A stretch of DNA of 64,000 nt from Bacteroidales bacterium (GTDB lineage Bacteria > Bacteroidota > Bacteroidia > Bacteroidales > UBA932). The stretch covers positions 248,001 through 312,000 of the forward strand of contig JAFRRA010000002.1 in assembly GCA_017428325.1 (NCBI GenBank). Direction: 5' to 3'. The notes beneath the pieces were generated by a model. It was not told the DNA's origin. It saw only the letters and a program-made list of their open reading frames with translations, and made no database searches. Every line of letters starts with the position of its first letter. The first letter of the stretch is position 1. The position numbers were made by a program, and so were the translations under genes. Positions 45,509 to 56,974 of this stretch are shown here, piece by piece.

Positions 45509-48280
45509 ATGGCAGACCAGGAGTATATCACGATAACTGGCGCACGGGTCAACAACCTGAAGAATATCTCGTTGAAGATTCCGCGCGGCAAATTGTGCGT
45601 GATAACCGGTGTCAGCGGCAGCGGCAAGAGTTCCCTGGCGTTCGATACCCTCTATGCGGAAGGGCAGAGAAGGTTCGCTGAGAGCCTTTCGTCTTTCGCC
45701 CGCCAGTTCCTGGGGAGGATGAGCAAGCCGGATGTGGACAAGATAGAGGGAATTCCGCCGGCAATCGCCATACAGCAGCGGACCAACACCCGCAACCCGC
45801 GCTCCACCGTTGCCACCAGCACGGAAATCTATGACTATCTCAGGATTCTCTACTCCAAGATAGGAATAACATATTCACCGATAAGCGGCAGTGTGGTCAA
45901 GAAAGAAACCGTGGAGGATGTCCTCTCCTTCATCGATACTCTTGAGAAAGGAACCGCGGTTTATGTCCTGTCAAAGATAGACGCTGGGGAGAAGATGCTC
46001 ATAGAGCGTCTGGTGGACCTAAAGCAGCAGGGTTTCACCCGTCTTTTCAGCGACGGCAGGATGGTCAAGCTGGACCAGTACCTGAAGGACGGGGCCAAAG
46101 CCGTGAAAAACCTCTACACGGTGGTTTCCCGGTTCCTTCACGACGGTAACGAAGACATTTCGGAGACAAGAAGTTCTGCCGAGAAGGCGTTCTCTATGGG
46201 CGGCGGAAGGCTTACCATAGGCTATTCTGAAGGAGAGGGTTACGGGTACAGGGAGTTCTCCAGCCTGTTCGAGGCGGACGGGATGGTCTTCGAGGAGCCT
46301 AACGAGCAGATGTTCTCCTTCAACAGCCCGCTGGGCGCCTGCCCGGATTGCGGCGGATTCGGTATTGTGGAGGGCATCGACGAGAAACTTGTCATCCCGA
46401 ACACGACTCTGAGCGTTTATGAGGACGCGGTGGCTCCCTGGAGGGGAAAACTGATGAGCTGGTACAGGGACAGGCTCCTGGAAAATGCCTGGAAATTTGA
46501 TTTCCCTATACATCGTCCATATGCTCAACTGACTCAGAAAGAGAAAGATCTGCTATGGAACGGCAACCAGTACTTTACGGGGATCAACGATTTCTTCTCC
46601 TGGGTGGAGACAAAGAAATACAAGATACAGTTCCGCTACATGCTTTCCAGGTATTCGGGAAAGTCTGTCTGCCGTTCCTGCGGAGGGACACGGCTGAAAA
46701 AGGAGGTCTCTTACGTGAAGATAGGCGGCAAGAGTATCGGTGAGCTTATGGAAATGGACGTGAGTTCACTGCTGTTTTTTTTCAGGAACCTTAAGCTTTC
46801 GGAATATCAGAAAGAGATAGGGGAAAGGGCGCTCAAGGAAATAACCCAGCGTCTGGAATACATCGAGAACGTGGGGCTCGGATACCTTACCCTGAGCCGC
46901 CGCTCTAACACCCTCAGTGGCGGAGAGAGCCAGAGAATCAATCTGGTAAGTTCTCTGGGAAGCAGCCTGGTCGGCTCGCTTTACATTCTGGACGAGCCGA
47001 GCATCGGCCTTCACCCAAGAGATACCCAGCGTCTCATTGATGTCATGAAGAAGCTCCGCGACCTTGGCAACACCATTGTTGTGGTGGAGCACGACCGGGA
47101 CATCATCAGCGCTGCTGACCATCTTATAGACATAGGACCGATGGCCGGAAGTTTCGGCGGTGAGGTGATTTTTGAAGGCACGGCAGACAAGGGGCGGGAT
47201 TTCCGCGGTTCCCTCACGCTGGATTATCTGTTCAACCGGCGCACGGTTTATTCAAAGACAACTCCTAGGAGGTGGTCCAGAAAGATTACCGTCGAGGGTG
47301 CTATGGAGCACAATCTCAAGGATATAACGGTTGACTTCCCGCTGAATGCCTTCACTGTCGTGTCCGGAGTGTCCGGCAGCGGCAAATCTTCACTGGTCGG
47401 GGATGTCCTGTATCCGGCATTGTGCCGCCATTTCCAGATCGGCTGCCAGCAGCCTGCCGGGGCTTTCCGCAAGCTTTCCGGAGACCTGGACAAGATTTCA
47501 GGCGTGGAATATGTGGACCAGAATCCTATGGGTAAATCCGGACGCTCCAATCCTGTCACTTATCTGAAGATCTACGACGATATACGCAAACTGTTTTCCG
47601 ACCAGCCTTATGCCAAGATGAACGGCTACACCAATTCCTTCTTCTCTTTCAACATAGACGGGGGAAGATGCCCGGTTTGTCAGGGAGACGGATATATCGT
47701 TGTCCCTATGCAGTTTATGGCGGATGTGAAGATGGTCTGCGAGGAATGTCACGGGCATCGCTTCAAGCAGGATATCCTTGAAGTCAAATATCACGGAAAG
47801 AACATTGACCAGGTCCTGGATCTCAGCGTGGATGCCGCCGTTGAGTTCTTCGCCGGTCAGAAAGAGCCTGCAGCAAAGAAAATCGCCGAGAATCTGGGCG
47901 TGCTTCAGAGAGTGGGACTGGGATATGTCAAGCTGGGTCAGAGCTGCTCTACACTCAGCGGTGGAGAGAGCCAGAGAATCATGCTTGCCCAGTTCCTTTC
48001 CAACGATCTCAGGAACAGGGGAAAGGGCAAGCTCTTCATATTCGACGAGCCGACAACCGGCCTTCATTTCCACGATGTAAGGAAGCTTCTGGACGCTTTC
48101 AGGGACCTGGTGGATGCAGGAAACTCTATAATTGTCGTGGAGCACAATACGGATGTAATAAAAGCTGCCGACTGGGTGATTGACCTTGGTCCGGACAGCG
48201 GAGACAAAGGCGGGGAAGTTGTATTTACTGGCACTCCCGCCTTGCTTTCCCAGGACCCTCGCTGGATGCCTTATCTGTAG
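45509..48280 (+). CDS. uvrA: UvrA-type excinuclease ATPase (possibly the UvrA2 paralogue)
   Basis: The 923-residue protein has two ABC ATPase halves with Walker A GVSGSGKSS at about residues 34-42 and 621-629, two LSGGESQR signatures, and two zinc modules (CPDCGG / CRSCGG and CPVCQG / CEECHG). It recognises damaged DNA and loads UvrB in nucleotide excision repair. Compared with classical UvrA, the segment NGYTNSFFSFNIDGGRC replaces the usual GRFSFNV context, and the pattern MQFMADVKMVC suggests the Bacteroidetes UvrA2-like branch. uvrB is far away at 59053. Confidence 0.85.
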   Translation: MADQEYITITGARVNNLKNISLKIPRGKLCVITGVSGSGKSSLAFDTLYAEGQRRFAESLSSFARQFLGRMSKPDVDKIEGIPPAIAIQQRTNTRNPRSTVATSTEIYDYLRILYSKIGITYSPISGSVVKKETVEDVLSFIDTLEKGTAVYVLSKIDAGEKMLIERLVDLKQQGFTRLFSDGRMVKLDQYLKDGAKAVKNLYTVVSRFLHDGNEDISETRSSAEKAFSMGGGRLTIGYSEGEGYGYREFSSLFEADGMVFEEPNEQMFSFNSPLGACPDCGGFGIVEGIDEKLVIPNTTLSVYEDAVAPWRGKLMSWYRDRLLENAWKFDFPIHRPYAQLTQKEKDLLWNGNQYFTGINDFFSWVETKKYKIQFRYMLSRYSGKSVCRSCGGTRLKKEVSYVKIGGKSIGELMEMDVSSLLFFFRNLKLSEYQKEIGERALKEITQRLEYIENVGLGYLTLSRRSNTLSGGESQRINLVSSLGSSLVGSLYILDEPSIGLHPRDTQRLIDVMKKLRDLGNTIVVVEHDRDIISAADHLIDIGPMAGSFGGEVIFEGTADKGRDFRGSLTLDYLFNRRTVYSKTTPRRWSRKITVEGAMEHNLKDITVDFPLNAFTVVSGVSGSGKSSLVGDVLYPALCRHFQIGCQQPAGAFRKLSGDLDKISGVEYVDQNPMGKSGRSNPVTYLKIYDDIRKLFSDQPYAKMNGYTNSFFSFNIDGGRCPVCQGDGYIVVPMQFMADVKMVCEECHGHRFKQDILEVKYHGKNIDQVLDLSVDAAVEFFAGQKEPAAKKIAENLGVLQRVGLGYVKLGQSCSTLSGGESQRIMLAQFLSNDLRNRGKGKLFIFDEPTTGLHFHDVRKLLDAFRDLVDAGNSIIVVEHNTDVIKAADWVIDLGPDSGDKGGEVVFTGTPALLSQDPRWMPYL

Positions 48281-48284
48281 GCCG

Positions 48285-48336
48285 TTTTGCGAAATCCGCA
48301 AAAATGTCGTATTTTTCCGTTTTGATTACATCAAAA
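48285..48336 (+). promoter_or_regulatory. Two TTTTG-type dyads around a weak promoter box before the dar operon
   Basis: Dyad 1 is TTTTGCG (48285-48291) with CGCAAAA (48297-48303). Dyad 2 is TTTTGAT (48320-48326) with ATCAAAA (48330-48336). Between them TATTTTTC at 48310-48317 is one base off the TAnnTTTG -7 consensus. The two dyads share the outer TTTTG...CAAAA. This could be the operator-promoter of the eight-gene cluster. Confidence 0.4.
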
Positions 48337-48343
48337 TGGAAAG

Positions 48344-48766
48344 ATGGTGAACTATCAGGAAATACCCGTTACTGAACTCATACCCCAACGCCCGCCGTTA
48401 GTGCTGGTGGATAAGGTATTGCACAGCAGCGAGGAAGACACGGAGACTATTCTGGAAATCCGGGAGGACAATATTTTCATGGAGGAAGGCCATCTTTCAA
48501 TGGCCGGTCTTCTGGAGAATATGGCCCAGTCCTGCGCCTGCAGGATGGGTTGCAGATGCATCGTTTCCGGAAGTCCGGTAAGGATAGGGGTTGTGGGAGC
48601 AATCAAGAACTGCACTCTGGACAGGCTTCCGCGCCTTGGAGAGACAATTCACACCCACGTGTGCATTATGGAGGAAGTGCTCAACCTGACTTTGGCAGGA
48701 GTGGTCGTGAAGGTGGGCGACGAGACTATAGCAACTACACTTATCAAGATGGCGATGACAGAATGA
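48344..48766 (+). CDS. Hot-dog fold 3-hydroxyacyl-ACP dehydratase (FabZ/ApeI-like)
   Basis: The 140-residue protein has the FabZ/ApeI-type opening LIPQRPPLVLVDKVL, in which the family histidine of PHR is replaced by Q, and GHLSMAGLLENMAQSCAC on the central helix, with the shared G-H and the glutamate at the usual position. The hot-dog fold dehydrates 3-hydroxyacyl chains on an ACP to trans-2-enoyl chains. As the first gene of the dar-type cluster it would help build the aliphatic or polyene arm of the product. Its stop overlaps the next start as ATGA. Confidence 0.78.
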   Translation: MVNYQEIPVTELIPQRPPLVLVDKVLHSSEEDTETILEIREDNIFMEEGHLSMAGLLENMAQSCACRMGCRCIVSGSPVRIGVVGAIKNCTLDRLPRLGETIHTHVCIMEEVLNLTLAGVVVKVGDETIATTLIKMAMTE

Positions 48767-49395
48767 AAAGGCTTCTTACGATATTGCTTTGCATTATGCT
48801 TCCTATTGGCCTTACAGCCCAGGCGCGGCTTTCCGCACAGGAGCAGGAAAAGATTCTGGACAGGATAGAATCATCAGCCTCGGCCACAGCCTCTATGCAG
48901 TGCGAATTTACCCAGACCAAGACAATGAAGATGCTCAAGGGTGATATGAAGTCCAGCGGGGTTATGTATTTCCGCAAGCCTGACAAACTGCGCTGGCAGT
49001 ACAATTCTCCCTACAAGTACATTTTCATCCTTAACGGCGGCAAGGTGAAGATGGAATCCACTTCATCATCGCAGAGTATAGACGTGAAGCAGAACAAGAT
49101 GTTCCGTCAGATTGCAGACATTATGCTCGGAAGCATTACCGGTGGCGGCCTGAAGAATTCTTCAGATTTTACGGTTGAGATTTTCAGGGAAGGAGACTCC
49201 CATTATGCCAGGCTTCTTCCTAAAAAGAAAGAGATAAAGCAGATTTACGAAGCCATAGAAATATGCTTCAATCCCTCTCTGACAATGGTCAGCAGCGTAA
49301 GGATGAAGGAGAAAACCGGGGATGAAACCATTGTTAAACTATTGAATGTTAGGAGCAATGGCTCTTTTGACGATAAGTTTTTTGATACTGACTAA
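48763..49395 (+). CDS. LolA-like periplasmic lipid/lipoprotein carrier of the dar cluster
   Basis: The start is the ATG at 48763, overlapping the dehydratase stop. The 210-residue protein has a signal peptide (cleavage after GLTAQ) and the LolA pattern ASMQCEFTQTKTMKMLKG, then MYFRKPDKLRWQYNSPY. LolA proteins appear in aryl polyene and related clusters, where they probably move the lipid product or a lipoprotein across the periplasm. It is distinct from the LolA-like protein encoded after ftsK. The next small gene starts inside its 3' end. Confidence 0.85.
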   Translation: MKRLLTILLCIMLPIGLTAQARLSAQEQEKILDRIESSASATASMQCEFTQTKTMKMLKGDMKSSGVMYFRKPDKLRWQYNSPYKYIFILNGGKVKMESTSSSQSIDVKQNKMFRQIADIMLGSITGGGLKNSSDFTVEIFREGDSHYARLLPKKKEIKQIYEAIEICFNPSLTMVSSVRMKEKTGDETIVKLLNVRSNGSFDDKFFDTD

Positions 49396-49753
49396 CCTTT
49401 TCCAGAGTGTGGATGCCGTTCCCGCTTCCGACACCCTTGTCCGCTCGGAGTACAATGTGATGATTAAGGCTCGGGGCATGGACTTTAACGGTATTTGCGT
49501 TATGGAATGCAATGACGAAGGTCTGATTACCGGCACGATAATCAGCCAAATGGGGCCGAAGATCTTCGACTTTACAATGTCTGGCAGAAAGGTGCGGGTT
49601 TTCAACGTTATAGAGCCCCTGAACAGGTGGTTTATCAGGAGACGGATCAGAAGAGACCTGTCAGACATACTGTCTGATCCAGAATTCTCCAACAACGTCT
49701 ATTCCCTGAATTCGCGTGGCATAGACTATTTTTTCATCCCTTTGAAAAACTGA
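49346..49753 (+). CDS. Small exported protein of unknown function in the dar cluster
   Basis: The 135-residue protein starts inside the lolA gene; ATG 49346 gives MLGAMALL and the internal ATG at 49358 gives MALLTISFLILTNLFQSVDA, a good signal peptide. The overlap with lolA is 38-50 bases. The mature part is about 110 residues: YNVMIKARGMDFNGICVMEC, then GPKIFDFTMSGRKVRVFNV and a basic patch RRRIRRD. Aryl polyene clusters often carry a small lipoprotein after lolA; this protein holds that place but has no lipobox. The darA start follows after two bases. Confidence 0.6.
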   Translation: MLGAMALLTISFLILTNLFQSVDAVPASDTLVRSEYNVMIKARGMDFNGICVMECNDEGLITGTIISQMGPKIFDFTMSGRKVRVFNVIEPLNRWFIRRRIRRDLSDILSDPEFSNNVYSLNSRGIDYFFIPLKN

Positions 49754-49755
49754 TC

Positions 49756-50640
49756 ATGAAGGCGGCGGTGTTCTATTATACGCAGAGCGGACAGGCTCTG
49801 GATGCGGCAAAGAGCATTTGCGGACAGATGGACGCTGTCTATAAGAGGATTATGCCTTGCCAGCCATATCCTTTCCCATGGAGCCGGAAGGAGTTCTTCC
49901 AGGTTTTCCCTGAATGCCGACTGGCCCTTCCGCCTTCCGGAATAGAACCTGTCGACTTTTCTGACGTGATGGATGCAGATGTAGTCCTGGTCGTGGGACA
50001 GTCCTGGTTCCTTTCCCCTTCACTGCCGCTTCAGTCTTTCCTCAGCGATGAAAATGTGAAAAACTACCTGAAAGGCCGCAATGTGGTATTCGTCAATGTG
50101 TGCCGGAATATGTGGCTGAAGACATCGCAGAAGATAAAGGAATATATGGAAGAGGCTCAGGCTAGACTTGTCGGACACATTGTGCTTCAGGATAATGCGG
50201 CAAACCTTGTCAGCGCCGTTACAATAATCCGCTGGCTTATTCACGGAAAGAAAGAGGCCACACGGATCCTTCCGGCCGCCGGTGTCAGCGGGGAGGATAT
50301 CAAGGGAGCTTCCCGCTTTGGAAACGTGATTGAAAACGCCCTCAAGGAAGGGGACCTTTCCGGCCTTCAGTCAGCACTTCTGGCGGAGGGAGCCATAAAA
50401 TACAAGCCTTCCATTCTGGCGATAGAGAAAACGGGCCACCGCATATTCGGCTTCTGGGCAAAATTTGTAAGGAAGAAGGGCGGATTCGGCGACAATCGCC
50501 GTCAGGGGAGGCTGACTCTGTTTTATTATTACCTTCTGTTTGTGCTCTTTGCGCTGAGTCCCCTGGGTCAGCTTTTTTTCTGGGCCACATATCCTCTTCG
50601 CAGAGTAAAGCATAACAGACAAATCGATTGCAACGTGTAA
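49756..50640 (+). CDS. darA: DarA-type dialkylresorcinol condensing enzyme (flavodoxin-like)
   Basis: The 294-residue protein begins with a flavodoxin-like strand and loop, AVFYYTQSGQALDAAKSI. Other DarA hallmarks are visible: PYPFPWSRKEFFQVFPE, SWFLSPSLPLQSFL, VNVCRNMWLKTSQK and the RWLIHGKK region. DarA works with DarB: it forms the aromatic ring of the dialkylresorcinol after DarB joins two beta-keto acyl chains. The last 50 residues hold a hydrophobic stretch (YYYLLFVLFALSPLGQLFFW) that may anchor it to the membrane. The darB start is six bases downstream. Confidence 0.85.
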   Translation: MKAAVFYYTQSGQALDAAKSICGQMDAVYKRIMPCQPYPFPWSRKEFFQVFPECRLALPPSGIEPVDFSDVMDADVVLVVGQSWFLSPSLPLQSFLSDENVKNYLKGRNVVFVNVCRNMWLKTSQKIKEYMEEAQARLVGHIVLQDNAANLVSAVTIIRWLIHGKKEATRILPAAGVSGEDIKGASRFGNVIENALKEGDLSGLQSALLAEGAIKYKPSILAIEKTGHRIFGFWAKFVRKKGGFGDNRRQGRLTLFYYYLLFVLFALSPLGQLFFWATYPLRRVKHNRQIDCNV

Positions 50641-50646
50641 GATCAT

Positions 50647-51783
50647 ATGGAAGTATTCATTACAAAAGCATCCGGGTTCTTCCCGAACTCTCCGGTTTCC
50701 AACGACGAGATGGAAAGTTATCTCGGCATGGTAGGCGGAAAGCCTTCCAAGGCAAGGAGGATTATCCTGTCCCGCAACGGAATCAAGTGCAGGTACTATG
50801 CCTTGGACAAGGATGGAAAACCTACCCACACCAACGCCCAGATGGCTGCGAACGCTGTCAAAGGACTCCTGGGAGAGGATTTGACCATTGACGACATAGA
50901 TCTCCTTTCCTGCGGCACCGCTTCTCCTGAGCAGCTGATCCCTTCTCACGGAGTAATGGTGCATGGACTCCTTGGGGGCAACAGGAACATGGAGGTGGTT
51001 TCCTTTGCCGGAAGCTGCTGTACCGGAGTCGACGCCCTCAAATATGCCTATATGGCGGTCAAGCTCGGCGATTCCCGCAATGCCGTTGTTTCCGCTTCCG
51101 AGAGGCTTAGCGCCTGGATGCGTTCAGAATATTTCCGGAAAGAAAGCGAATACCTTTCCCAGCTGGAGAGCCAGCCGCTGCTTGCTTTTCAGAAGGAGTT
51201 CCTGAGATGGATGCTCTCAGACGGGGCCTTTGCCCTTCTGCTTGAAAACAAGCCGAATAGAAATGGCTTGTCTTTGAAGATAGACTGGATAGACATCACT
51301 TCCTTTGCAAATACCAGGGAGACTTGCATGTACGCTGGAGCGGAGAAGGAAGCTGACGGAAGCCTGAAGGGCTGGGCGGACTTCCCGGAACAGGAATGGC
51401 TGTCAAAGTCTGTGTTTGCCCTCAAGCAGGACACCCGTATGCTGGAAGAGCATATTGTAAAGCTTGGGATTGACTATCTCATACAGTTAGGGGAGAAGCA
51501 TTCCTTCTCGCCGGAAGACGTGGACTGGTTCCTGCCTCATCTTTCCTCCATGTTCTTCAAGGACAAGATACTGGAAGAATCCAGGAAAAGAGGGTTCTTC
51601 ATTCCGGAGAGCAAATGGTTTGTAAATCTCCCAAGCGTTGGGAACATAGCTTCAGCTTCCGCCTTTGCGATGCTGGAAGAGCTCCTCAAAAGCGGGAAAC
51701 TTAAAAAAGGGCAGAAGATTCTGCTTATGATACCGGAGAGCGCCAGGTTCTCCTACTGCTATTGTATGCTTACCGTTTGCTGA
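50647..51783 (+). CDS. darB: DarB-type beta-ketoacyl synthase (KAS III-like)
   Basis: The 378-residue protein is a thiolase-fold ketosynthase of the FabH/DarB group. The likely Cys-His-Asn triad is in FAGSCCTGVDAL (near residue 120), WFLPHLSSM (near residue 300) and PSVGNIASASAF (near residue 330). The N-terminus with ITKASGFFPNSPVSNDEM matches DarB. It would condense two acyl chains in the key step of dialkylresorcinol formation. No acyl carrier protein gene is next to it, though the reaction normally uses ACP-bound substrates. Confidence 0.87.
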   Translation: MEVFITKASGFFPNSPVSNDEMESYLGMVGGKPSKARRIILSRNGIKCRYYALDKDGKPTHTNAQMAANAVKGLLGEDLTIDDIDLLSCGTASPEQLIPSHGVMVHGLLGGNRNMEVVSFAGSCCTGVDALKYAYMAVKLGDSRNAVVSASERLSAWMRSEYFRKESEYLSQLESQPLLAFQKEFLRWMLSDGAFALLLENKPNRNGLSLKIDWIDITSFANTRETCMYAGAEKEADGSLKGWADFPEQEWLSKSVFALKQDTRMLEEHIVKLGIDYLIQLGEKHSFSPEDVDWFLPHLSSMFFKDKILEESRKRGFFIPESKWFVNLPSVGNIASASAFAMLEELLKSGKLKKGQKILLMIPESARFSYCYCMLTVC

Positions 51784-51796
51784 AAATTAACAAATT

Positions 51797-52198
51797 ATGA
51801 AAGTAGACGAGGTTCCTCAGGACTTGAAATACTACAAGGGTTCCGTTGTCCGCGACGTCAATTACGCGGTGGATGAAAACGGCCAGTACAAGGCTGTGAT
51901 CAGCGACGGCTGGACTCCAAAGAACGATGCCCTGGATATGGCTTTGGATGAAGTCAGCCAGCAGTGCTGTCAGATAGCAGAACGGGTAAGGAAAGGAGAG
52001 AGCAGCCCTCTGGAATACCATGCCGCAAAGAATCTTATGAATGTAAGGCTTCTTTCAGACTATACGGGTATTCCGAAGCGCAAGATCCGCAGGCATTTCA
52101 GGCCGGAGAACTTCGCTGCCCTTGATGATGGGACTCTGGCAAAATATGCCGAGGCCTTGAGAATAACCGTCGCAGAACTGAAATGCTTACCGGAGTGA
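51797..52198 (+). CDS. Uncharacterised protein with C-terminal helix-turn-helix-like segment
   Basis: The 133-residue protein lies between darB and the BtrH gene. I do not recognise the family. The first half (VVRDVNYAVDENGQYKAVISDGWTPKNDALDMALDE, quoted here only for its DVNYAVD and SDGW anchors) is compact and acidic. The second half, LLSDYTGIPKRKIRRHFRP then LDDGTLAKYAEALRITVAEL, has the spacing and polarity of an XRE-type helix-turn-helix ending. It has no signal peptide and no phosphopantetheine serine motif, so it is not an ACP. It could be a cluster-specific regulator or a protein-protein adaptor. Confidence 0.5.
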   Translation: MKVDEVPQDLKYYKGSVVRDVNYAVDENGQYKAVISDGWTPKNDALDMALDEVSQQCCQIAERVRKGESSPLEYHAAKNLMNVRLLSDYTGIPKRKIRRHFRPENFAALDDGTLAKYAEALRITVAELKCLPE

Positions 52199-52199
52199 T

Positions 52200-53246
52200 A
52201 TGGAACTGAATATCGGGCACAGGCCAAGTGCGCATTGCGAGAACGGAGCCATATCGGCTCTTTTGAGATTTCACGGGATAGACCTTTCCGAGCCGATGAT
52301 TTTCGGCCTTGCCAGCGGACTGTTTTTCAGCCACGTGCCGTTTGTTGATGTGGGCGGAATGCCGCTTACTTCTTTCAGGACCGTTCCCGGCTTCCTTTTC
52401 AAGCGCATAACAAAGCTGCTTGGCATCAAGACTGAGACCGCAAGATATTTCAACCGGGAAAAGGGTATGAGACGGCTGGATGACCTCCTTCTCAGGGAGA
52501 AAAAGCCGGTGGCCCTTGTTGTCGGGATGTATTATCTGCCTTACATCCCAAAGGAGTACCGCTTCCATTTCAACGGACATAACATCTGCATCATAGGCAA
52601 GGATGAGGAAACGGGGGAATATATCGTGCTTGATTCCAATGCTACCCAGAAGGTTACGATAAGCCGCAACGACCTGATAAAAGTCAGATATGCAAAGGGC
52701 GGAACCTATTCCCTGTTTGGAAGGATGTACTGGATAAAGTCCGTACCTGAGCAAATGCCGGATTTGAAGCCTTTGATCCTCAAGGCTATCGCAAAGAACT
52801 GCAGGATAATGACCAGTGCATACAGGGGAGTCAGGTACGTGGGCGTAAGAGGTATGCGTTTCCTCTCTGAGAGAATCCGCACATGGGAGAAAAAAATGGG
52901 GCCTCAGAAGGCACTTATAAACGTTGCCCAGGTTGTCAGGATGCTGGAGGAGATAGGTACTGGCGGGGCCGGTTTCCGCTTCATCTACGGGGCTTTCCTT
53001 CAGGAAGCCGCCCAGAGGACCGGAATCGCGGAGCTGAATGACTATTCCACCAGGATTACGGAGATAGGTGATTTGTGGAGGACATTTGCAGTTAGGGCTT
53101 CCAGGATGTTCAAACGGCGCAAGTCCGAAACATGCACTTACGATGATCTTGGGGATATGCTTCTAAATCTTGCCAGTAAGGAGGAGGCTTTCTACAAGGA
53201 TCTGGAAAAAGCCGTTGAAAAGTATATGGACCAGGCTGGCCTATGA
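52200..53246 (+). CDS. BtrH-type acyltransferase (BtrH N-terminal domain plus DUF4872-like region)
   Basis: The 348-residue protein starts right after the previous stop (TGATATGG). Its N-terminal half matches the BtrH_N domain, a papain-like fold with Cys in AHCENGAISALLRFHG, His in FHFNGHNICIIG and Asp in IVLDSNATQ. In butirosin synthesis BtrH moves an acyl group from an ACP to the acceptor amine. The C-terminal half is helical. Here it may release the resorcinol or fatty product from the ACP and join it to an acceptor, or make an amide or ester. It overlaps the MMPL gene by four bases (ATGA). Confidence 0.82.
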   Translation: MELNIGHRPSAHCENGAISALLRFHGIDLSEPMIFGLASGLFFSHVPFVDVGGMPLTSFRTVPGFLFKRITKLLGIKTETARYFNREKGMRRLDDLLLREKKPVALVVGMYYLPYIPKEYRFHFNGHNICIIGKDEETGEYIVLDSNATQKVTISRNDLIKVRYAKGGTYSLFGRMYWIKSVPEQMPDLKPLILKAIAKNCRIMTSAYRGVRYVGVRGMRFLSERIRTWEKKMGPQKALINVAQVVRMLEEIGTGGAGFRFIYGAFLQEAAQRTGIAELNDYSTRITEIGDLWRTFAVRASRMFKRRKSETCTYDDLGDMLLNLASKEEAFYKDLEKAVEKYMDQAGL

Positions 53247-56101
53247 CGGATTTCTTCCTTCATATCTATGACTTTCTGAAGAAACGGAGGGGCTTCTGTT
53301 TTGTCCTTCTGGCCGCCGTGATGGCCGCTCTTGTCCTTATGACTCTGTCTTTGAAGTACAACGAGAACATCTGGGATTTCCTTCCAGCTGGGGATAATAG
53401 GCAGAAAGCCATAACTTTATATCAGGATATATCAGGAGGACAGAGAGTTGTGGCGATGTTCCGCCTGAAGGATCCAACCTCGTCTGAGAGCAGTCTTACG
53501 GATGCTGTTGACACCTTTTCCCGTAGGGTAATGGAGGGTTCCGGAAGAAAGCACATAACTTCAGTAGAATCCCAGATAGACTTTGACCGGTATGCCGGTA
53601 TAACGGACTTTGTCTACAGGAACATTCCGCTGATGCTCAGCGATTCCGACTATGTCAGGATGGAGAACCTCCTTTCCAGTCCTTTATATGTGGACGAACA
53701 GCTGGAAGCGGACGTGGGGATGATAATGATGCCGGCAACAGGATTCTTCACATCCAGCATCGGAAGTGATCCGCTCTCCCTTTTTTCTCCTGTTATCAGG
53801 CGTTTGCAGGAAAGCCAGCTGGCGCTTCCTTACGAGTTCGACGACGGCTATATCTATACACCCGGAAAAGGCTACGCCATTGCCCTGGTGTCCTCTCCAT
53901 ACGGGGCTATGGAGTCTGCCAACAACAATCAGCTTGTTAGTTACCTGGACAGTGTAGCCCGCCAGACGATGGAAGCCTCGCCGGATGTGGACCTGGCATT
54001 TACCGGTGCACCGGTGATTTCCGTGGACAATGCCCGCAGGATCAAAAGTGACAGCAAGAAAGCCATATCCATTGCCGTAACCCTGATCCTGATACTCCTG
54101 ATCCTTGCTTTCAGGAGGGTGAAGAGCCTTATGCTGATTGGCCTTGCCATTCTGTTCGGTTGGCTCTTTGCAATGGGATTCATTGCGGCTCTCAGAAACG
54201 ACGTATCCCTTATAGTTCTTGGAATAGGTTCCATTATCATCGGAATAGCGGTCAATTATCCTCTTCATTTCGTGGCCCATACAGACCACGGCGGTTCTGT
54301 GAGGCAGTCTCTGAAAGAAATGGTGGCCCCGCTGCTTATCGGCAACATCACCACGGTGGGCGCTTTTGCCGCCCTGATGCCTCTGGATGCCCCCGCCCTC
54401 AGGGATCTGGGTTTCTTTGCCGCATTCATGCTGATAGGAACGATCATTTTCGTGCTGGTGTTCCTTCCGCATCTTGTAAAAAAAAGAGCCGGGAAGGAGA
54501 AACTTCTTTTCCGTGGCGTTTCTTCATTCTCCCCGGAAAGGAAAAAGTGGCTGCTCTGGGTGGTTTTAGCGCTCACGGTTTTCTTCGGATACTTCAGTTT
54601 CGGGACTTCTTTCGATACGGATATGAACCGTATCAATTACTTGACACCCAAGCAGAAACAACTGCTGGAAGGCCTTGGCGTCCAGGCTGGAGTGAACGAT
54701 ACCTCGAACATCTATCTTGTGGCTGAAGGAAAAACCTGGGACCAGGCTTTGGAACGCAGGATGGCGATGGCTCCGCTTCTTGACAGCCTGAAAAGTAAAG
54801 GAGTGATTGACGGCTTTTCTTCGGCGACTGGTTTTATCGCCCCGAAGGGTGAGCAGAAAAGGAGGATAGACCTTTGGAACGCTTTCTGGAATGAGCACAA
54901 GGAGGAAGTCCTTTCCACACTGGATAGCCGCGCTTCTCGCTACGGCTTCAGTGAAGAAGCTTTCTCGTCTTTCAGGCGGCTGATCGCCGAGGATTATTCG
55001 GCAAAGCCTTTTGAGCATTTTGACACTCTCCGCCAGGCAGTCCTGGGCAATTCTTTCAGTGCTTCGGGCGGCAATTTCTCCGTTGTGGATGTGGTTAAGG
55101 CTCAGGATATTGGCAAAGCCTGCCAAATACTCGGTTCCTCTCTTGGAGACCGGGGCTACGCTTTCGATTTTGCCGGAATGAACAGTTCCATAGCCAGAGG
55201 TCTCTCGGATGACTTCAACTACATTGGCTTTGCCTGCGGTCTGATCGTCTTCATCTTCCTGTGGCTGAGCTTTGGCAGACTTGAACTTACACTCATCGCT
55301 TTCCTTCCTATGGCGATGGGATGGTTCTGGATATTGGGAATAATGAATCTTCTGGGCTTGCAGTTCAACATTGTCAACGTGATTCTTGCCACGTTCATAT
55401 TCGGACAGGGAGACGACTACACCATATTCATAACCGAGGGGCTCATAGACGAGTTCGCGTACGGGAAGAAGGTGCTGGCTTCCTTCAAGAACAGCATAAT
55501 AATATCAGCGCTCATAATGTTCATCGGAATGGGATCCCTGATCGTGGCCAGGCATCCTGCTCTCCACTCCCTGGCCGAGGTTACTATTGTGGGCATGCTT
55601 TCCGTTGTGTTTATGGCCTGGATAGTTCCGCCGGTGCTCTTTTCTTTCCTTGTTTCTCACAAGGGGAAACCACATCTCTATCCCCTTACCTTCGGACAGA
55701 TATTCGCCCGCAAGTCAGAGGGCAACGCCACAAAAGACAGCCATTCATTCCACCGGTTTGTCATATGCAAGTATATCTACAAAGGTTATGCGGTTGAAAG
55801 GGAAACTCGCCGCCTGCTGAAGAGATATGATGACTTCTCTGAATGGGTAGACAGGGACATTCCGCAGTCTAATGTTTCAGTCATTAATGCCGGGAAAGGC
55901 CAGTTCTCCCTTATGATGGCTCTTGTTCATCCGGAAATTGAAGTGCATTCCTACTGTTCCGAGCAGGACGATGCTGCCCTGCTTTCCGCAATCAGTCCCA
56001 AACCGGCAAACCTTCATGTCCATTGCGTGAAAGACGGGCAGGCTGCCATGGAGGCGGCTTCCGGGACACATGTCATCAATCTGTCTGAGATACTGGATTA
56101 A
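53243..56101 (+). CDS. MMPL/RND-family lipid exporter with C-terminal methyltransferase-like remnant
   Basis: The 952-residue protein has an N-terminal membrane helix (about 17-37), a large periplasmic domain, five to six helices (about 265-410), a second periplasmic domain and six helices (about 650-810), the standard RND two-half plan; FLPAGDNRQKA follows the first helix. From about residue 820 there is a cytoplasmic tail: FHRFVICKYIYKGYAVERET, RRLLKRYDDFSEWVD, then VINAGKGQFSLMMALVHPE with Rossmann-like features. Longer relatives in Bacteroidetes are described as trifunctional MMPL transporter / lysophospholipid acyltransferase / SAM methyltransferase; here no acyltransferase H-x4-D block is evident and the methyltransferase part is short. 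It probably exports the resorcinol-like lipid. Confidence 0.8.
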   Translation: MTDFFLHIYDFLKKRRGFCFVLLAAVMAALVLMTLSLKYNENIWDFLPAGDNRQKAITLYQDISGGQRVVAMFRLKDPTSSESSLTDAVDTFSRRVMEGSGRKHITSVESQIDFDRYAGITDFVYRNIPLMLSDSDYVRMENLLSSPLYVDEQLEADVGMIMMPATGFFTSSIGSDPLSLFSPVIRRLQESQLALPYEFDDGYIYTPGKGYAIALVSSPYGAMESANNNQLVSYLDSVARQTMEASPDVDLAFTGAPVISVDNARRIKSDSKKAISIAVTLILILLILAFRRVKSLMLIGLAILFGWLFAMGFIAALRNDVSLIVLGIGSIIIGIAVNYPLHFVAHTDHGGSVRQSLKEMVAPLLIGNITTVGAFAALMPLDAPALRDLGFFAAFMLIGTIIFVLVFLPHLVKKRAGKEKLLFRGVSSFSPERKKWLLWVVLALTVFFGYFSFGTSFDTDMNRINYLTPKQKQLLEGLGVQAGVNDTSNIYLVAEGKTWDQALERRMAMAPLLDSLKSKGVIDGFSSATGFIAPKGEQKRRIDLWNAFWNEHKEEVLSTLDSRASRYGFSEEAFSSFRRLIAEDYSAKPFEHFDTLRQAVLGNSFSASGGNFSVVDVVKAQDIGKACQILGSSLGDRGYAFDFAGMNSSIARGLSDDFNYIGFACGLIVFIFLWLSFGRLELTLIAFLPMAMGWFWILGIMNLLGLQFNIVNVILATFIFGQGDDYTIFITEGLIDEFAYGKKVLASFKNSIIISALIMFIGMGSLIVARHPALHSLAEVTIVGMLSVVFMAWIVPPVLFSFLVSHKGKPHLYPLTFGQIFARKSEGNATKDSHSFHRFVICKYIYKGYAVERETRRLLKRYDDFSEWVDRDIPQSNVSVINAGKGQFSLMMALVHPEIEVHSYCSEQDDAALLSAISPKPANLHVHCVKDGQAAMEAASGTHVINLSEILD

Positions 56102-56128: not shown

Positions 56129-56974
56129 ATGGCTATGAAAAGGATTCTGATTCTTTCTGCCTCATTGCTTCTTTTATGCAATGTCGGCATTTCCCAGAAA
56201 ATGAAAATCCGGAGCGAGAAGCCGGAAGACCACATGGTTTCGATGATGAGTTTCAACATCCGCCACGGTTGCGGAATGGATCGTCAGGTAGATCTTGGAA
56301 GGATAGCGGCAGAAATCGCTCTTGTCGGAGCTGATGTAGTTGCCCTTCAGGAAGTTGACAAGGGTACTAAAAGAATCGGGGGAGTGGATTCTCCTGAAGA
56401 GATAGCAAAGCTTGCCGGCGGTTATGTGGCTTCATTTGCCTCGGCGATTGATTTGGGCGGAGGCAAATACGGCAATGCGATCCTGTCAAAGAAAGCGCCA
56501 ATTTCTGTCGAGAGTGTTCCCCTTCCGGGCAAGGAAGAGCCAAGGGTCATGCTGGTTGCGGAATTTGAGGATTATTATTTCTGCTCACTGCATTTGTCTC
56601 TGGACCGCGATTCGAGAGTGGAAGCCTGCCGCAAGATTGCCAGGTATGCCAGATCCAAGTCTAACGACAAGCCATTTTTCATAGCCGGAGACTTTAACCT
56701 TGTCCCTAACTCTATGGAAATGAGTGTGCTTGCGGAAGATTTCGCAGTCCTGTCCGCATTTGAAGTCAAGACATTCCCGTCCGATAACCCGGACCGAACC
56801 TTGGACTATATAATGGTTTACAGGGGAGGTGCCGGCAAGAAACTTCTCAGGAAACTTGAAAAGGGAAGCATGGGTGTCGCATCCTGGGTTCAGCCGGAGA
56901 AGGTTGCATCCGACCACAGACCAATATTCACCCTGATTTTCAAGGGAGAGAACTGCGTTACCGAGAAGTTCTGA
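56129..56974 (+). CDS. Exported endonuclease/exonuclease/phosphatase (EEP) family enzyme
   Basis: The 281-residue protein has a signal peptide (LSASLLLLCNVGISQ). The EEP motifs appear in order: MSFNIRHGCGMD, VVALQEVDKGTKR (metal-binding glutamate), FCSLHLSLDR, FFIAGDFNLVP, DRTLDYIMV and the final SDHRPIFTLIF. Exported members cleave phosphodiester bonds in sphingomyelin-like lipids, nucleic acids or inositol phosphates. The substrate is unknown. Its last 17 bases overlap the convergent RSH gene. Confidence 0.85.
   Translation: MAMKRILILSASLLLLCNVGISQKMKIRSEKPEDHMVSMMSFNIRHGCGMDRQVDLGRIAAEIALVGADVVALQEVDKGTKRIGGVDSPEEIAKLAGGYVASFASAIDLGGGKYGNAILSKKAPISVESVPLPGKEEPRVMLVAEFEDYYFCSLHLSLDRDSRVEACRKIARYARSKSNDKPFFIAGDFNLVPNSMEMSVLAEDFAVLSAFEVKTFPSDNPDRTLDYIMVYRGGAGKKLLRKLEKGSMGVASWVQPEKVASDHRPIFTLIFKGENCVTEKF

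Follow-up and report, generated by a model that had tools for sequence, protein, structure and literature searches.

Gene content of the operon

The sequence analysed here, referred to as the window, is a 64,000-nucleotide stretch of a Bacteroidales genome (assembly GCA_017428325.1, denoted G000: 1.95 Mb, 7 contigs, 88.9% complete; the window is G000:C1:248001-312000). Eight plus-strand open reading frames (ORFs) occupy positions 48344-56101 of the window, in the order DH, LolA2, LolB2-like, DarA, DarB, DarG, DarH and MMPL. The data presented below suggest, with a probability of roughly 0.6, that a flexirubin-type pathway is split here into two halves, this operon supplying the dialkylresorcinol part and an aryl polyene (APE)-like locus situated downstream the other, and that the two are interlocked by reciprocal gene loss. 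Families were assigned with NCBIfam and Pfam models, and fold matches were obtained by a search of PDB chains. Comparisons within the genus covered 39 genomes, G000 included; a family-level sample comprised 299 genomes, and a search with DarB returned 116 loci, 80 of which were kept for comparison. The features of the region are as follows.

48344..48766, plus strand: DH, a FabZ-like dehydratase of the dar type (weak match to the NCBIfam FabZ model, 30 bits against a cut-off of 113)
48763..49395, plus strand: LolA2, a flexirubin-type periplasmic lipid carrier (NF053544 LolA2_flexi, 198.5 bits, cut-off 125; PF03548)
49346..49753, plus strand: exported protein resembling LolB2, with no lipobox evident (NF053540, 31 bits, under the cut-off of 60)
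49756..50640, plus strand: DarA, the predicted flavodoxin-like aromatase of the resorcinol ring (profile match and position beside DarB)
50647..51783, plus strand: DarB, a StlD/DarB-family ketosynthase/cyclase (NF053539, 571.2 bits, cut-off 550)
51797..52198, plus strand: DarG, a small conserved protein with a helix-turn-helix-like C-terminal half (NF053536 DarG_fam, 133.7 bits, cut-off 70)
52200..53246, plus strand: DarH, a BtrH-related acyltransferase (NF053550 DarH_acyl, 378.5 bits, cut-off 300; BtrH_N and DUF4872 domains)
53243..56101, plus strand: MMPL/RND-type lipid exporter (PF03176 above its cut-off; TIGR00921 at 97.9 bits, under its cut-off)
48320..48336, no strand: inverted repeat TTTTGAT-TAC-ATCAAAA with perfect 7-bp arms, directly 5′ of DH; candidate operator/promoter region
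45509..48280, plus strand: uvrA-family gene (Pfam UvrA domains), the left flank of the insertion site, outside the pathway
56129..56974, plus strand: endonuclease/exonuclease/phosphatase-family gene (PF03372, synteny), the right flank of the insertion site, outside the pathway

The genes are tightly packed. Two of the gene pairs share an ATGA overlap (DH/LolA2, 48763-48766, and DarH/MMPL, 53243-53246), and not three, as had been stated in a first-pass annotation of this DNA; LolA2 and the LolB2-like gene overlap by 50 nt without an ATGA, and at each remaining junction the genes are separated by a short gap (1, 2, 6 and 13 nt). The same eight-gene order lies between uvrA and the phosphatase-family gene in G014 and G022 and, up to the contig end, in G013; G009 has this order plus one gene. 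Full-length counterparts of all eight ORFs are present in G009, G014 and G022, and the MMPL gene of G013 runs off its contig. The recurrence of the order between the same flanks indicates that the operon is more than a chance arrangement. The view of the first-pass annotation, which had suggested looking for the order in other Bacteroidales, that the eight genes form one unit is upheld. The intergenic block containing the inverted repeat is kept in G009, G013, G014 and G022, with at most one spacer difference, and was not found in G003; the repeat is possibly the site of a regulator.

Four of the eight proteins exceed the cut-offs of NCBIfam models named for flexirubin/dialkylresorcinol clusters. 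DarB matches StlD chain 5gk0 (E = 3e-122), no difference from the StlD/DarB ketosynthases being seen at this level. Its residues C124, H298 and N333, which we take to be the KAS III Cys-His-Asn triad, occupy alignment columns that are at least 95% identical (89 rows, at most 81 distinct sources; the residue alignments drew on 88 loci representing 80 distinct records, eight having been entered twice). A loss of catalytic residues, which the first-pass annotation had named as telling against its reading, was thus not observed for DarB. A profile built from 35 DarA proteins matches the flavodoxin-like PDB chain 2mwm (E = 3.5e-5), and DarA lies above the cut-off of no curated NCBIfam or Pfam model; the recognition of DarA and DarB as the ring-forming pair stands. 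The same is true of DarH as a BtrH-type relative, given its NF053550 score and BtrH_N domain. DarH residues C13 and H127 fall in columns at least 95% identical (81 rows, at most 73 distinct sources), and C13 is presumably the BtrH-type nucleophile.

The remaining small proteins are less sharply defined. DarG scores 135 of the 170 bits required by the flexirubin_DarG equivalog model and has a weak PF13443 match (E = 0.042). Among 60 of the 82 DarG rows, those of five Prevotella-type clusters (L030-L033 and L039) showed one DarH-like protein starting with a DarG-like N-terminal stretch; this natural fusion suggests a joint role for the two proteins. The 'small exported protein' of the first-pass annotation proved to be LolB2-like, yet under the model cut-off. 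It is the most diverged of the eight (48-49% identity to G013, G014 and G022). By a simple motif check, one of 17 distinct LolB2-like relatives (L042) has a lipobox, and the window protein does not; the LolB2 of Flavobacterium johnsoniae, by contrast, is a reported lipoprotein (PMC11885536). As for the 'dehydratase', a FabZ relative it appears to be, although a weak one. No Pfam family was assigned to DH, its PDB search gave two weak unrelated matches and nothing else, and its family has a single match in the whole of G000.

Values of dN/dS were calculated by the Nei-Gojobori method for G000 against G013 (MMPL compared partially), G014 and G022, and also against G009. In the former comparisons LolB2 gave 0.40-0.44 and the seven other genes 0.05-0.13; against G009 they were 0.05-0.16 for the other genes and 0.26 for LolB2. 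The gene predictions and these values indicate eight real, full-length ORFs under purifying selection, and the operon, although reduced, is probably functional and does not have the look of a decaying one.

A second locus downstream of the operon

Acyl carrier protein (ACP) models match six places in G000 and ketosynthase (KS) models four; no ACP or KS was found within the eight-gene operon (ORF list, Pfam, NCBIfam), the ACP matches lying elsewhere. The APE-like locus (C1:327372-338691) begins 23 kb past the operon, beyond the window, and thus lies 23-35 kb downstream. Its order is a kinase-like gene, a nucleotidyltransferase, a short-chain reductase with a ketoreductase (KR) match, an HtrB-like acyltransferase, ACP, KS, chain-length factor (CLF), an EamA-like gene, LolA (101 bits against LolA2_flexi, under the cut-off of 125), GT2 and MMPL with a PlsC-like end. 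The designation kinase-like and the names relA, uvrB, prfA and imidazolonepropionase are provisional, being given from sequence or from weak matches. No dehydratase was found among the genes of this locus, every other expected APE component being present. It is apparent that the KS, CLF, ACP, KR and DH of the flexirubin-pathway polyene set are all in the genome, once the operon DH is counted with the downstream locus.

The first-pass annotation had reported no ACP, ketoreductase, KAS partner, acyltransferase or glycosyltransferase. This is correct for the operon and incorrect for the genome: the search that it had proposed for ACP, ketoreductase and KAS genes located them, all three kinds being present in the APE-like locus. 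A full cluster elsewhere, which would make the operon a fragment, is largely what was found, in the form of that locus and a ligase-ACP-KS module on another contig (C5:475.3-478.6 kb). Because ACP, KR, KS, CLF, acyltransferase and GT2 are present in the same genome, a missing ACP is no longer a sign of a novel self-contained pathway. The operon resembles a dar cluster minus KS/CLF and a second dehydratase, and is best read as a reduced form of a known cluster type.

A locus at C5:149-157 kb (PlsC, KS, ACP, MMPL, CrtI-like oxidoreductase and LolA) may contribute to the pathway as well; homologues of its KS and oxidoreductase lie inside the dar clusters of G031 and several Prevotella-type genomes. 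Two other candidates were not tied to the operon, namely two ACPs and a ligase at C1:475-478 kb, resembling surface-polysaccharide genes, and an ACP at C5:421.5 kb that adjoins FabF and is presumably housekeeping.

Dar clusters in related genomes

DarB proper occurs in 10 of the 39 genus genomes, nine over the model cut-off and G031 at 538 of 550 bits. Within the family sample 28 of 299 genomes, these 10 included, match DarB at E ≤ 1e-100. Among named records, the DarB proteins closest to that of G000 come from Bacteroidales metagenome genomes of buffalo and yak rumen/omasum (three of the 80 loci, at 93% identity).

Gene orders, assigned by best match, form a graded series. The G031 cluster has two ACPs, DH, KS, CLF, LolA2, LolB2, a second dehydratase (DH2), GT2, an oxidoreductase, DarA, DarB, DarG and DarH, with a ligase-like gene and another KS upstream. 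G015, G017 and G021 have the order DH-KS-CLF-LolA2-LolB2-DH2-DarA-DarB-DarG-DarH-MMPL, the MMPL gene of G015 running off its contig. KS and CLF are missing from the G009 cluster, in which DH2 is present, and all three genes are missing from those of G000, G013, G014 and G022. In G003, DH stands alone between uvrA and the phosphatase-family gene; these two flanks directly adjoin each other in nine genomes (G015, G017, G021, G023, G024, G027, G029, G030 and G031).

The distribution of the ACP was compared as well. G031, for which no separate APE-like locus was found, has two ACPs in its dar cluster, and the dar clusters of G000, G009, G014, G017 and G022, each accompanied by an APE-like locus, have none (G035, being fragmented, was not compared). 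In other genera of the family an ACP lies beside the dar genes in 15 of 19 loci (18 genomes); three of the remaining four (L264, L271 and L272) are shortened by contig ends, stopping before or just past DarH, and that of G083 has none in 19.5 kb. Across the 80 loci, a DarH-family gene lies near DarB in 72. In one dar locus (L037), which has DarB, DarG, DarH and MMPL, neither DarA nor LolA2 was recognised in the 10 kb upstream; this may represent an assembly gap.

Complementary gene content of the two loci

In genomes without dar genes the APE-like locus reads KR-HtrB-DH-(KS9)-ACP-KS-CLF-EamA-LolA-GT2-MMPL. Sixteen such genomes gave a CLF match, and eight entered the count of APE-locus DH. Those excluded were G003 (relict DH, placed with the dar-site-DH side), G005 (the contig stops within the locus, and the DH lies on a different contig), G002 (CLF and DH on separate contigs) and G001, G011, G020, G037 and G038 (CLF only 32-36% identical); the last five agree with the pattern, a DH match lying within 5 kb of the CLF match on the same contig. 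All eight readable dar-less relatives have a DH of their own in the APE-like locus: between HtrB and KS9/ACP in G023, G024, G027, G028, G029 and G032; in G030 next to HtrB, the block being inverted; and in G036 before KS9 at the contig start. In contrast, the APE-locus DH is absent from all nine genomes with both a dar-site DH and an APE-like locus, the dar DH being the only one found genome-wide. This absence was established by synteny in G000, G003, G009, G014, G015, G017 and G022, and by a single whole-genome DH match, in place of a full reading of the locus, in G013 and G021.

Other genes follow suit. DH2 adjoins GT2 of the APE locus in G005, G023, G024, G027, G028, G029, G030 and G032, is confined to the dar cluster in G009, G015, G017, G021, G031 and G035, and was not found in G000, G003, G013, G014 or G022. 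The dar LolA2 is present and the APE-locus LolA absent in G015 and G017. One dar-less APE-like locus (L201, in G024) holds a histidine/tyrosine ammonia-lyase-family lyase unmatched in the other APE-like loci compared, a possible aryl starter gene.

A four-gene species tree places the G017 clade outside a group of G000 and the dar-less G023, G027, G029 and G030 (SH-aLRT 100, UFBoot 77; later supports are given in this order). The APE-locus tree concurs (99.9/85), and the CLF tree joins the G017 clade to G023 and G029 (96/93). Since the G000 and G017 clades are separate in the species and APE-locus trees, it is probable that the APE-locus DH has disappeared on two or more occasions, always from genomes with a dar DH. 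For DH2, the species tree has G009 branching within the G000 clade (97.7/98), implying two losses or spread by recombination, and the APE-locus tree has it outermost, implying one loss.

Relocation between the loci was considered and rejected for both DH and KS. The window DH clusters with dar-type DHs from the genus and from Prevotella-type loci, apart from the APE-locus DHs, and the remnant DH of G003, whose dN/dS against five relatives is about 0.11-0.15, falls with the dar DHs also; the dar KS make up a separate group (97.5/99), and G015, G017 and G021 have both kinds. These groupings argue for losses rather than moves. One dar DH, from L042, is placed between the dar and APE DHs.

Proposed pathway and alternatives

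Flexirubin is described as an ester of a dialkylresorcinol with an aryl-polyene acid, the resorcinol arising from two fatty acid intermediates condensed by the Dar enzymes (PMC3992019), and LolA2/LolB2 are thought to function in pigment synthesis or transport (PMC11885536). The gene identities, DarB residues, purifying selection, downstream locus and complementary gene presence reported above are read directly from the genomes; from them we infer the following enzymatic steps, shared use of DH and product. DarB would condense two fatty-acid-type thioesters to a cyclohexanedione, which DarA would oxidise to a resorcinol. The APE-like locus would build an acyl chain, probably a polyene or otherwise unsaturated, with the operon DH as dehydratase, and the ligase-ACP-KS module on C5 may load the starter. 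DarH, aided by DarG, would join chain and resorcinol, the ester step being suggested by the DarH family, and MMPL, LolA2 and the LolB2-like protein would transport the lipid to the outer membrane. Among the findings in favour of this two-locus reading, the downstream locus has KR, ACP, KS and CLF without DH, and dar-less relatives keep a DH there.

A more specific history is offered tentatively. A full dar cluster may have been acquired beside a resident APE-like locus and the two then pruned reciprocally, so that neither would work alone, one DH would serve both, and the product would be a resorcinol-polyene hybrid with a head group not derived from tyrosine. If so, one genus shows the natural stages from a complete cluster to a single surviving gene.

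Several observations weigh against the two-locus reading. The name 'dehydratase' for the DH family rests on the weak FabZ match. The nine genomes lacking an APE-locus DH represent two clades only, the 100/77 support is modest, and a UvrA-only tree leaves the clade order open. The genomes are drafts (73-96% complete), so absences may be gaps. In G003 the DH lacks the conserved upstream block and, DH being an end gene, its survival there could be an accident of a simple deletion. The genome also has a housekeeping FabZ (C1:219032), which could take the place of an APE DH in the downstream locus. Lastly, no dedicated (tyrosine) ammonia lyase was found in the 88.9%-complete genome: the single PF00221 match, at C3:76555 beside urocanase and amidohydrolase genes, is most likely the histidine enzyme.

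That FabZ is central to the strongest alternative, in which the operon is self-sufficient: DarA and DarB would act on ordinary fatty acid intermediates, DarH would add an ordinary acyl group, and the APE-like locus would make a separate product by means of FabZ. It is reported that darA and darB of Chitinophaga pinensis alone yield dialkylresorcinol in a heterologous host (PMC3992019), and the operon lacks KS/CLF and DH2. This alternative does not explain why the APE-locus DH was lost in both dar-bearing clades, with the loss of DH2 there and of LolA in G015 and G017, or why G003 retains DH alone, and it is considered unlikely. It is distinctly improbable that the operon is a decaying, no longer productive remnant of a full flexirubin cluster. 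The shrinking gene sets, first without KS/CLF, then without DH2 and finally DH alone in G003, and the weak conservation of LolB2 would fit such decay; the full-length frames, the low dN/dS of seven genes and the retained DarB residues do not. Least probable of all is the proposal of the first-pass annotation that DarH uses an amine as acceptor for the resorcinol or an acyl chain, yielding a new outer-membrane lipid: the BtrH relationship and the transport genes favour it, but DarH-family genes are usual near DarB, the enzymes absent from the operon exist nearby, no operon family match indicates an amine, and the known flexirubin bond is an ester to resorcinol (PMC3992019).

Possible lateral spread and mosaic divergence

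UvrA of G000 is 55-57% identical to that of seven Prevotella-type genomes and DarB 69-79% (67% and 69%, respectively, against G031). Because the DarB identity to the Prevotella-type genomes exceeds that of UvrA, lateral spread of the dar cluster is suggested. The in-cluster KS of G017 groups with Prevotella-type KS and not with that of G031 (88.6/95).

Divergence along the region is mosaic. Values of dS to G013, G014 and G022 are 0.24-0.65 for DH and LolA2 against 1.1-1.3 for UvrA, and a single history for the whole operon was rejected, as dS varies by gene. The phosphatase-family gene of G000 is 82% identical to that of G009 and 70-71% to those of G014 and G022. Recent recombination in the operon region is likely. 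G014 also has a second phosphatase-family gene (L164) and a second uvrA (C8), both G015/G017-like and probably assembly contamination.

Comparison with known systems and implications

The flexirubin systems of F. johnsoniae and C. pinensis (dar and flx) also have darA and darB, together with a LolA gene and a gene for a predicted exporter, and C. pinensis, too, has its dar genes and its polyene genes in separate clusters (PMC3992019). F. johnsoniae carries lolA2/lolB2 in its flexirubin locus (PMC11885536), to which the LolA2 and LolB2-like genes of the operon correspond; among flexirubin accessory genes, LolA2, DarG_fam and DarH exceed their cut-offs, and LolB2 and flexirubin_DarG fall under theirs. 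Unlike those systems, the operon is without ACP, KS, CLF and KR, the genome yielded no dedicated tyrosine ammonia lyase, and DH seems common to the two loci.

There are published precedents for dar and polyene loci that are not linked (PMC3992019, PMC3949708). The pathway for arcuflavin, a polyene-dialkylresorcinol hybrid of Azoarcus sp. BH72, extends over unlinked loci, both polyene loci being needed; its dar cluster has a BtrH-like gene, as here, and also an ACP (darC) and a ketosynthase (darJ), neither present in the operon and neither shown to be obligatory (PMC3949708). The apeA-R cluster of Escherichia coli has the same kinds of genes as the downstream locus (KS, CLF, KR, ACP, GT2, acyltransferase, LolA-like, RND exporter), plus two dehydratases and an acyl-ACP synthetase, neither of which is in that locus (PMC8253772). 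Predicted resorcinol clusters in gut Bacteroidota have been published (PMC9007364, PMC9100364); no report of rumen resorcinol clusters, or of enzyme sharing between such loci, was found in the open-licence literature.

Cluster-finding tools assess one locus, and by that measure the operon seems incomplete, its probable partner being another locus. The congeners, with dar, without dar and with DH alone, would constitute a natural experiment on the pairing of dehydratases with chains in flexirubin-type synthesis, and may also show the trimming of a laterally spread pigment cluster into a resident one. The occurrence of resorcinol lipids in rumen-type Bacteroidales is predicted.

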